A stretch of 64,000 nucleotides of DNA from Methylomusa anaerophila (GTDB lineage: Bacteria; Bacillota; Negativicutes; Sporomusales; Sporomusaceae), in contig NZ_AP018449.1 of NCBI RefSeq assembly GCF_003966895.1, forward strand, positions 4,109,501 through 4,173,500, given 5' to 3'. Under the pieces are notes generated by a model, which worked only from the letters and a program-made list of their open reading frames with translations, was not told the origin of the DNA and ran no database searches. Positions 3,782 to 41,709 of the stretch are shown one piece after another. Each line of letters opens with the position of its first letter. Within the stretch, counting starts at the first letter, position 1. Both the position numbers and the translations under genes were made by a program.

Positions 3782-3793
3782 AACCTTAATTTA

Positions 3794-3920
3794 AGGAGGC
3801 TGGTTCAAAATGTTCAGATGCTAGGCGTGACGAGGACGCGAGCGGAACAGTACAGTTAAGTACGTGCAGTGAGCGCCCGCAGGAGCAACAACGCAGATGG
3901 GCGTTTTGAACCAGCCTCCT
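3794..3920. repeat. Dispersed palindromic element, family A, copy 1
   Basis: A 127-bp element with perfect 17-bp terminal inverted repeats (3794-3810 and 3904-3920). Its right end touches the last base of the mutL stop codon. The conserved end sequences GGTTCAAAATGTTCAGATG and GCAGATGGGCGTTTTGAACC recur at 26029-26089 (reverse orientation, core deleted), and a diverged copy lies at 33155-33332. No open reading frame is credible inside it. Position directly after a stop codon and strong self-complementarity resemble REP or MITE-like intergenic elements. It may act as the mutL terminator or a 3'-end stabiliser. Confidence 0.8.
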
Positions 3921-18228: not shown

Positions 18229-18257
18229 ATTGTACAAACGTTTGTTCGCTTTGTCAA
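18229..18257 (-). promoter_or_regulatory. SOS promoter of recA-recX with LexA box
   Basis: TTGACA (18257-18252) and TACAAT (18234-18229) with a 17-bp spacer. The spacer contains CGAACAAACGTTTG (18248-18235), a full match to the Gram-positive LexA/DinR core CGAACnnnnGTTYG. LexA bound here would sit between the two RNA polymerase contacts. Confidence 0.88.
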
Positions 18258-18266
18258 TATAGGAAA

Positions 18267-18372
18267 CGCATTAAAGAATTGAAATTATATCCGGTATTAG
18301 GAACGCTTCGACGCTGTCGCTTAACTTCAGCTTATCCTAATACCCGGACCCGAATGTCAATTCTTTAATGCG
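18267..18372. repeat. Dispersed palindromic element, family B, copy 1
   Basis: A 106-bp element with perfect 16-bp outer arms beginning CGCATTAAAGAATTGA and nested inner arms (TCCGGTATTAGGA / TCCTAATACCCGGA). The near-identical 100-bp second copy is at 41553-41652 in the same orientation. It lies between the DEAD-box gene stop codon and the recA promoter, ending 10 bp from the -35 box, so it probably also ends helicase transcripts. Confidence 0.85.
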
Positions 18373-18389
18373 AATAATAGGGCAGGAAG

Positions 18390-26028: not shown

Positions 26029-26089
26029 GGAGGGTGGCTCAAAACGCCCATCTGCGCTGCTGTCATCTGAACATTTTGAACCACCCTCC
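26029..26089. repeat. Dispersed palindromic element, family A, copy 2 (short form)
   Basis: A 61-bp hairpin. On the reverse strand both ends match the ends of the 3794-3920 copy almost base for base (TTCAAAATGTTCAGATG and GCAGATGGGCGTTTTGA), but about 70 bp of the core is missing. It sits 5 bp after the rodZ stop codon and 17 bp before the YgiQ ATG. Confidence 0.85.
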
Positions 26090-26094
26090 CTAAA

Positions 26095-26874
26095 TTAGGG
26101 TGTAACTGAATTGGCAGTAAATGTTTTGTCAATCACTTCACCGTTCGTTCCGGGGGTTCCTATTTGTTTCCCATTATATATCAAATTAACGGCACCCGCG
26201 TTACCCAATTTCATTGTGATTTTATTGTCAGCTTCCCACGTTAACGTCTCACCCGGCTTGGGAATGCCTTCATATATTTCTCTGCCGTCGGCAGTCACTA
26301 AAGTCCAACAATCATTCGAGAACTTGGCCGTTACAACCACAGGTTTAGCATTAGCGGGTTTAGCAGGAGTTGTAACTTGGGGTTGAGAGGTAGAAGGTGT
26401 AGTAGGTTGGGGAGAATTTTGAGTTGGGTTTATTTGCTGAGCAGTAGGAGGCGGTGGTGTAGGAGCCGGTTGCTTGACATTTGAAGACCACCATGCATAA
26501 CCTGCAACTCCTCCGGCCACAAGAGCAACGATCAACCACTTGGCAATCGAGTAGTTCCACGACTTTTCCGCCGCTGAAGTTGCCCCTTGTTTTTTGAGAC
26601 GGGATTCCTCTATAACAGAAGCAGATGTAACTGTTGCAGGCTTTTCTTTACTCTGGCGATATACTGCCATTATCTGCTGCACATCTAATCCCAAAAAGTT
26701 GGCATAGTTCCGAATAAAACCCTTTAAATAAACTTCACCGGGAATGATAGAATAGTTACCTTCCTCAATAGCATTCAGATAAAGCGCTCTAATACTGATT
26801 TCTCGCTCAACATCCTTGATGGAAAAACCTTTTTTTTCCCGCTCACTTCTCAATATTTCCCCTACTGTCGGCAT
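26095..26874 (-). CDS. rodZ: RodZ-like helix-turn-helix membrane protein
   Basis: A 259-residue bitopic protein. Residues 1-70 form a Cro/C1-type helix-turn-helix ([19 protein letters not shown]), which in RodZ contacts MreB. One transmembrane helix lies at about 130-150 ([17 protein letters not shown]), followed by a Pro/Thr/Gln-rich linker and a C-terminal DUF4115 domain (residues about 185-259, [15 protein letters not shown]). The role is cell-shape maintenance. It overlaps the end of mnmH by 32 bp and has GGGAGG before the ATG. Confidence 0.92.
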
Positions 26875-35944: not shown

Positions 35945-36976
35945 TCAAATTAAATTTTGATGAATCATGTACTCCGCTATTTGTACAGCATTAAGGGCTG
36001 CACCTTTTCTAATTTGATCACCAACTACCCACATATTAAGTCCGTGTTTTACAGACTTATCTTCGCGAATTCTCCCCACAAACACTTCATCATGACCAGA
36101 TGCCAACAGCGGCATTGGGTAAATCATTTCAGCCGGATTATCTTGTACAATAACTCCTGGGAATTTAGCCAAAAGTTCTTTGGCTTCCGGCGGCGATAAC
36201 GGACCGTCAAGTTCCAGATTTATGGATTCCGAATGGGCGCGGTATACCGGCACCCTGACCGTTGTGGCCGAAATGCCGATGCTAGGATCGTTTAATATTT
36301 TATGCGTCTCATTAACCATCTTCATCTCTTCTTTTGTATAGTCTCCATCTACAAATATATCGATATGCGGAATGAGATTAAATGCGATTTGATAGTGCTT
36401 GTCAAGGCTCGCACTTGGCAATACACGCGCTTTTACCGGACGTTCTTCCATGACGGCTTCAACCTGATCCGTCAATTCGTCAATTGCTTCTTTACCCGCT
36501 CCTGATACTGCCTGATAGGTTGAAACTACCACTCGTTTGATTTTTACACTGTCATATATGGGTTTCAAAGCCATAACCATAATGATTGTTGAACAGTTGG
36601 GATTGGCAATTATGCCCCGGTGCTGCTTAATAGCTTCCGGATTGACTTCAGGCACAACCAAAGGCACTTCGGGATCCATGCGAAAAGCACTGGAGTTGTC
36701 GATTACTACAGCACCAAACTTAACAGCTTCCGGCGCAAGTGTCTTGCTAATAGATCCCCCGGCAAACAAAGCAATCTGTATTTCTTTAAATGAATCAGGC
36801 CGGGCTTCCTCTACAGTATACTTTTTGCCTGCAACTTCAATCTCTTTACCCGCTGAACGTTCCGAGGCCAGTAACTTAAGTTCATTGTACGGAAAATTCC
36901 GTTCTTCGATTAATTTAATAAATTCGCGGCCAACAGCTCCAGTAGCGCCTAAAATTGCCACATTATACTTTTTCAT
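35945..36976 (-). CDS. asd: Aspartate-semialdehyde dehydrogenase
   Basis: A 343-residue NADPH-dependent enzyme that reduces aspartyl phosphate. The NADP-binding GATGAVGREF lies at the N-terminus, the catalytic cysteine is in NPNCSTI (near residue 130), and VYRAHSESINLE carries a catalytic histidine. The start is the ATG at 36976, with GAGGGTG upstream. It lies between dapB and the aspartate kinase with short gaps, as part of one operon. Confidence 0.96.
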   Translation of the reverse strand: MKKYNVAILGATGAVGREFIKLIEERNFPYNELKLLASERSAGKEIEVAGKKYTVEEARPDSFKEIQIALFAGGSISKTLAPEAVKFGAVVIDNSSAFRMDPEVPLVVPEVNPEAIKQHRGIIANPNCSTIIMVMALKPIYDSVKIKRVVVSTYQAVSGAGKEAIDELTDQVEAVMEERPVKARVLPSASLDKHYQIAFNLIPHIDIFVDGDYTKEEMKMVNETHKILNDPSIGISATTVRVPVYRAHSESINLELDGPLSPPEAKELLAKFPGVIVQDNPAEMIYPMPLLASGHDEVFVGRIREDKSVKHGLNMWVVGDQIRKGAALNAVQIAEYMIHQNLI

Positions 36977-37861: not shown

Positions 37862-38115
37862 AACAGCCGGTGAGTGCTGTTCTCACCCGCTGTAAAATAC
37901 AGCCTTACGGCATAGGAAAATATTTATATCTTCCCTTGCCAGACGAGATAGCTCTCCACCAATAATTTTTGGTGACAGTCTTAAACTTATTCAGTATAAG
38001 ACCAGCAAGAAAAACGCCGGTAGTTCTTCCCACTTCGGCGGTTGACCCTTTCCCTTCAGATCATTGGTACCACTCTCCCTGAAAGTACTTTTGACTCCCG
38101 CACCTCTACTTCATC
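37862..38115 (-). promoter_or_regulatory. Lysine riboswitch (L-box) of the dap operon
   Basis: On the minus strand the aptamer (about 38115-37944) shows the L-box signatures GAGGTGCG, AGTACTTTCAGGGAGAGTG, GAAGGGAAAGGGTCAACCG followed by CCGAAG, and the closing GGAGAGCTATC. The expression platform contains a terminator stem (37893-37862) and an overlapping antiterminator GCTGTATTTTACAGC (37903-37889), which compete for ACAGC. Bound lysine should favour termination and switch off dapB-asd-dapG-dapA. Confidence 0.92.
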
Positions 38116-38150
38116 CTGCCCAGGATGTTGCTTATTCATTTTACGTTCAT

Positions 38151-41503: not shown

Positions 41504-41552
41504 ATATTGCCCCTTTTCTTAAAATGAATATAATTAATTCATCTATATGAAC

Positions 41553-41652
41553 CGCATTAAAGAATTGAAATTATATCCGGGTATTAGGAACGCTTCGACG
41601 CTGTCGCTTAACCTCAGCTTATCCTAATACCCGGATGTCATTCTTTAATGCG
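41553..41652. repeat. Dispersed palindromic element, family B, copy 2
   Basis: A 100-bp element nearly identical to 18267-18372, in the same orientation: outer arms CGCATTAAAGAAT/ATTCTTTAATGCG, inner arms TCCGGGTATTAGGA/TCCTAATACCCGGA, central block GCTTCGACGCTGTCGCTTAA. It lies between the amidase terminator and the M16 peptidase start. Confidence 0.88.
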
Positions 41653-41709
41653 ACATATATAATACAATGTATTAACATTATTATACCGAAATACTATCCG
41701 AAAACAAAG

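Follow-up and report, generated by a model that had tools for sequence, protein, structure and literature searches.

The two palindromic repeats that we analysed in a 64,000-nucleotide stretch of DNA (hereafter the window, positions 4109501-4173500 of a genome that is one contig of 4,781,198 bp, i.e., 4.78 Mb) are almost certainly IS630-type MITEs, and the 32-nt core at their hairpin tip is probably a structured element kept by selection. The combination of both, a mobile MITE with a selected core, is the reading that we consider probable. The MITE part is conventional. The first-pass annotation had proposed that identity of this kind outside genes implies recent spread or strong selection, and both appear to apply, to different parts of the element. 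Spread follows from the dispersed intergenic copies, the TA ends, a resident IS630-family element with similar ends and the empty sites of a sister family, whereas selection follows from a tip core and a stem pairing that are kept while the stem sequence changes wholly between families and genera. Furthermore, relatives have the tip inside otherwise different repeats, pointing to a role of the tip itself that has not been described.

Both palindromes lie where they had been reported, in the same orientation, and share outer arms, inner arms and a central block. The limits of 100 bp given to them were too narrow, however, as the family ends lie ca. 7 bp further out on each side, resulting in 120 bp for copy A and 114 bp for copy B (Table 1). 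Compared with copy B, copy A has one G fewer in the left inner arm and a 6-base insert (ACCCGA) in the right one; its right end is decayed and the second TA is absent, GG being found at 18380-18381. In a folding check, of the kind that the first-pass annotation had proposed, both copies fold far better than shuffled sequences (z of -8.6 for copy A and -9.0 for copy B, with 0 of 200 shuffles equally good).

Table 1. Parts of the two repeats, in window positions.
Feature	Position	Strand	Evidence
TA before copy A, left half of presumed TA target duplication	18258..18259		sequence; family ends
Copy A, IS630-type MITE, decayed right end	18260..18379	+	sequence, genome search, alignment
Copy A left terminal inverted repeat	18260..18283	+	sequence, alignment, comparison with IS630-family ends
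Copy A inner stem left arm, one G lost	18289..18302	+	sequence, fold
Copy A 32-nt tip core	18303..18334	+	core pattern scans, covariance model
Copy A inner stem right arm	18335..18348	+	sequence, fold
Copy A right terminal inverted repeat, end decayed	18356..18379	-	sequence, alignment
TA before copy B	41544..41545		sequence
Copy B, IS630-type MITE	41546..41659	+	sequence, genome search, alignment
Copy B left terminal inverted repeat	41546..41569	+	sequence, alignment, comparison with IS630-family ends
Copy B inner stem left arm	41576..41589	+	sequence, fold
Copy B 32-nt tip core	41590..41621	+	core pattern scans, covariance model
Copy B inner stem right arm	41622..41635	+	sequence, fold
Copy B right terminal inverted repeat, one A lost	41637..41659	-	sequence, alignment
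TA after copy B	41660..41661		sequence

The repeats had been described as a pair, but searches with the core, the terminal repeat and the whole query found dozens of copies in the genome, and neither a lack of further copies nor a lack of conservation in relatives, the outcome named beforehand as a refutation, was observed. A 126-base query hit at least 40 distinct places (40 of 117 candidates scored, nearly all further rows being the same places on the other strand). With up to 3 mismatches allowed, the core pattern occurs 50 times genome-wide (0 for the reversed pattern); a looser version occurs 60 times and the terminal-repeat pattern 75 times (0 in either control), while a covariance model at E<=0.1 found at least 82 matches, sister families included, among the best 150 of 1451 candidates. 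Ends without an intact core were seen at two places (L175 and L176). At least four stem families carry the core in this genome, namely B1 (that of the window), B2 (10 near-identical copies), B3 (13 copies) and B4 (7 copies), and in a related genome, G003, another family has 120 forward and 117 reverse end matches, which amounts to ca. 118 copies. The spread can be called recent for the B2 and G003 families, in which copies are near identical; the window family, judged from 30 aligned copies, is more diverged. An origin from phages or plasmids was discarded: neither the 50,697 phage records nor the 72,556 plasmid records matched the 126-base query, and viral contigs contained no exact match to the core pattern. 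Two oddities were seen along the way. At L174 (genome 1262808-1263089) the tip loop of a window-type copy is interrupted by a palindromic insert with ends GTGGTCTGTAAAC/GTTTACAGACCAC, one repeat inserted into the hairpin tip of another, and in G003 core matches at 35961, 61709 and 87457 are spaced by exactly 25,748 bp, as if such a block were present three times.

The elements are short (114-120 bp), gene-less and dispersed in many intergenic copies. Alignment of 30 copies suggested TATGGAACGCATTAAAGAATTG and CAATTCTTTAATGCGACATATA as the ends of the window family, and the B2 and G003 families have the same end design. The genome of the window also contains an IS630-family element (PF13358) of ca. 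1.16 kb, with three TA-flanked copies that have both ends. Of 24 positions compared, these ends share 20 with the right end of the G003 type, a level reached by none of 100,000 shuffles, 16 with the left end of the window family (reached by 9 of 100,000) and 14 with its right end (386 of 100,000). Going by these comparisons, the terminal inverted repeats are IS630-like in design, the window family's own match being moderate. Flanking TAs were found in 10 aligned B2 copies and, among the 20 G003 copies fetched, of which 19 were readable (L163 had no script match), mostly at both ends, often as CTA..TAG, with the exceptions of L161 (CA/CA) and of L154 and L155 (TA/GA).

From these features, the element would be a non-autonomous MITE of ca. 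115-120 bp, with two terminal inverted repeats of ca. 24 bp and no gene, inserting at TA and moved in trans by an IS630-family transposase. Which transposase serves the window family can only be inferred, as no IS with near-identical ends was found among the 75 end matches inspected in the genome. We looked for an autonomous copy among 19 inward-facing end pairs less than 6 kb apart, but 18 of them span 68-282 bp and the remaining pair, 3.6 kb apart, belongs to two different MITE copies. G003 and G007 (another related genome) have IS630-family remnants with window-like sequence at one end, which were also discarded as candidates, since a second matching end was not found.

Target duplications, which the first-pass annotation had suggested looking for, may be present. 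Copy B has TA on both sides and copy A on the left only, and the single-TA empty sites come from one copy of the sister family in a related genome, not from the window family. This copy, in G007, is a G003-type element located between TA and TA, ca. 20 bp upstream of a gene that, from its protein sequence, we take to be rph. When its flanks were joined, leaving out the element and both TAs, 8 of the 10 other genomes searched gave an alignment that spans the junction. Four of these alignments covered query positions 1-438 and two 1-434, at 80-81% identity, and the other two covered 68-434 at 77% (G004) and 25-434 at 74% (G003); G001 and the window's own genome gave one-sided matches only. The junction columns read exactly TA in six of the eight, with a gap in L214 and a T plus a gap in L217. 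Two further joined sites had no spanning match, one of them having no match and the other matching on a single side of the junction.

The core itself, 32 nt at the tip of a ca. 14 bp stem, has a much wider distribution than the window family. Of 60 relatives searched with the DNA query, 14 had matches, many of which covered the middle of the query only, and these middle matches turned out to be the 32-nt core within stems of different sequence. With a covariance model built from 25 sequences (E<=0.001, stricter filters) we found the core in 36 of 200 genomes of the class, and in a sample of the phylum (E<=0.01, stricter filters) in 3 of 398, both counts including the window's genome and the other two phylum matches being weak. 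An exact pattern scan recovered 14 stretches, from Sporomusa acidovorans, S. silvacetica, Anaerospora hongkongensis and one MAG. At the curated threshold, Rfam gave no match over the core in the window or in sets of 18 and 19 loci, and in a relaxed scan of 7 loci sub-threshold microRNA matches were all that appeared over the cores. The window does contain a lysine riboswitch (RF00168, 128 bits) at 37941-38116 on the minus strand. Three loci (L147-L149) represent one orthologous core locus in three species, with 88-95% identity over several hundred bases. They adjoin what we read as a methyltransferase-like gene, but no rule was seen and the idea of a conserved locus was abandoned.

The stem below the core covaries. 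In a MAFFT alignment of 25 sequences, picked by their core, 13 of the 14 stem pairs have changed on both sides, and the covariation score reached 0.578; shuffles scored 0.159 and slid partners no higher than 0.159. Another 24 sequences, hand-chosen to take in more distant copies and leave out those with gaps in the core (among others L140, L143, L145, L147-L149, L034, L045, L046, L053, and L054), had 92% of stem cells paired and 96% of the cells of an inner 2-bp hairpin, whose pairs were GC in 17 or AU in 5 sequences and CG in 18 or UA in 5. An inner hairpin of 4 bp, with 76% of its cells paired, was replaced by this one. Among the 113 matches from 100 loci that were fitted to the model (38 of them non-redundant), the 13 pairs with the highest corrected mutual information were all stem pairs. 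Such counts are inflated by sequences with a recent common ancestor. The cargo of the MITE is a stem of variable sequence presenting the conserved core with its small inner hairpin.

Repeats that lack IS630 ends also contain the core, and many of them follow an intrinsic terminator. When 110 distinct matches (113 rows with duplicates removed) were sorted by their end pattern, 37 of 64 non-MITE copies had a terminator upstream on the core strand, versus 6 of 46 MITE copies (p 1.5e-6, from a home-made, permissive detector and from related copies that are not independent), and the other three placements had 10 (the mirror image), 18 and 9 of the 64. Positive were 6 of the 8 B3 copies given to the detector, which sit behind differing terminators, and 6 of 7 B4 copies, five of which are clustered behind a similar one. 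This cluster (L108 and L109, genome 2300500-2328500) has its five B4-type copies within ca. 23 kb, with the similar terminator before each. In five genera (L033/L047, L048, L055, L145 and L150, among 37 loci scanned), copies directly follow 5S rRNA and share its strand. A general link with rRNA operons was discarded: one 5S was found in the window's genome, with no covariance-model match nearby. A core with common sequence and structure in several repeat families and many genera probably carries a function that mobile repeats exploit. The core could be a signal that some host factor recognises and that mobile repeats of several kinds carry. We give about even chances to the stronger statement that it is an undescribed, class-wide structured nucleic-acid element, independent of its vehicles, which rides IS630-type MITEs and terminator-adjacent repeats, the copies downstream of 5S included, because a host protein or ribonucleoprotein recognises it.

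There are two ways in which such a core could act. We tentatively favour a hairpin signal at the RNA level, although we would not put the chances of a structured RNA as high as even. In 36 of 37 sequences the more stable fold is that of the core strand's complement (means of -24.2 versus -18.6 kcal/mol; one partial row was dropped and L146 is the exception), and the inner loop of the complement is often GNNA. The core strand has 46 A.C cells versus 13 G.U; counted as distinct events over 19 arm clusters these become 42 versus 20 (p 0.007), with 11 clusters leaning to A.C, 2 to G.U and 6 tied, the largest one (37 rows, of the window type) leaning to G.U with 4 A.C versus 6 G.U. RNA folding would most likely take place from the strand TAAGCGGAGGTTAAGC-GNNA-GCGNCGAAGCGT, that is, the TAAGCGGAGG strand. 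This strand evidence is statistical, and gene orientation argues partly against it. It is the core strand, and not its complement, that tends to run with the neighbouring genes: among 63 copies both neighbours had the same direction as the core strand in 24 and the opposite one in 10, to which the two window copies, dropped from this table as window duplicates, have to be added, as their neighbours are opposite to the core strand. In the remainder, 17 copies had the upstream gene opposite and the downstream one the same, 7 the reverse, and 5 had one side missing.

The other way would be a signal in DNA, the core being a binding site, or a hairpin formed in single-stranded DNA, for a transposition factor common to several transposon families, with no role as RNA. 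We rank this below even chances and close behind the RNA reading. In its favour are a core common to elements with different ends, strand-specific mispairs that would also fit a folded single strand of DNA, and a preference of the non-MITE copies for one orientation behind terminator hairpins. Against it, no candidate enzyme was found, and it is not the better-folding complement that one would expect to be exposed as lagging-strand template, going by the orientation bias and an origin inferred near 1.6 Mb from the sampled loci. Orientation along the chromosome is strongly biased (33 to 3 below 2.0 Mb and 10 to 29 above, 75 matches), but the coding DNA of the same loci is equally biased, so that the bias decides nothing and a lagging-strand hairpin model derived from it was discarded.

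MITEs are usually treated as empty parasites, and a plain account of the window copies would be a MITE of this kind, whose central hairpin is functionless ancestral filler, alike through descent from few masters. Copies within a family are indeed near identical, and MITEs are often palindromic (PMC3049150). We nevertheless find this account improbable, as the same core recurs here in at least four families whose stems differ and covary, as well as in other genera and in repeats that lack IS630 ends, and filler would not have retained the tip while the stem turned over. REP sequences with RAYT transposases are abundant extragenic hairpins with variable stems, a likeness to the repeats described here. 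A REP, however, is a palindrome of 20-40 nt with a short motif conserved at the foot of the stem, whereas here we have 114-120 bp with 32 nt conserved at the tip and, in B1, B2 and the G003 type, IS630-type ends; membership in the REP/RAYT group was discarded on length, ends and position of the conserved part. The Correia elements of Neisseria are also short, with inverted repeats (of ca. 26 bp) and many copies, and we know of no core that they have in common with other repeat families, nor of covarying variable stems in them. Correia elements are named in the paper that describes RUP, the repeat unit of pneumococcus (PMC3049150). According to the same paper, RUP is ca. 107 bp long, has many extragenic copies, target duplication and tight secondary structure, and its terminal repeats resemble a resident IS630-family element (IS630-Spn1); reports of RUP come from pneumococcus and S. 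mitis and, rarely, from other streptococci (PMC3049150). RUP is alike in design: short, with many extragenic copies, ends like those of a resident IS630-family element and a tight fold, to which a target duplication can probably be added. The difference with RUP is that here the tip core is common to families with different stems and ends, across a class. As judged from the sequences, the window element would work like known IS630-type MITEs such as RUP, with the TA duplication seen for the sister family only. The part worth following is the shared core, which had no Rfam match in the scanned sequences and on which a limited literature search found no paper. It provides a defined RNA or DNA ligand for fishing, and the covariance model can be used for mapping.

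The gene neighbourhood of the copies varies. All 63 copies that could be classed, using a crude ORF finder, were intergenic. Copy B is located between genes for an M16 peptidase and an amidase, both on the minus strand, and copy A between recA (Pfam RecA, 1.3e-143) and a DEAD-box helicase gene, also both on the minus strand, starting 10 bp after the helicase stop codon. The first-pass annotation had copy A abutting the SOS promoter of recA. The neighbour is indeed recA, and CAAACGTTTGTTCG, which resembles a LexA box, lies at 18235-18248, 9 bp from the TA that precedes copy A. That copy A is a site-specific regulator of recA or of the helicase gene, as these short distances could suggest, is very improbable, since dozens of copies are flanked by unrelated genes in every arrangement; the site of copy A is one of these dozens, and no tie to function was found in the recA neighbourhood. 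The window also has a second pair of repeats, at 3783-3919 and 26029-26101, in opposite orientation and 88-92% complementary, perhaps another MITE-like family.
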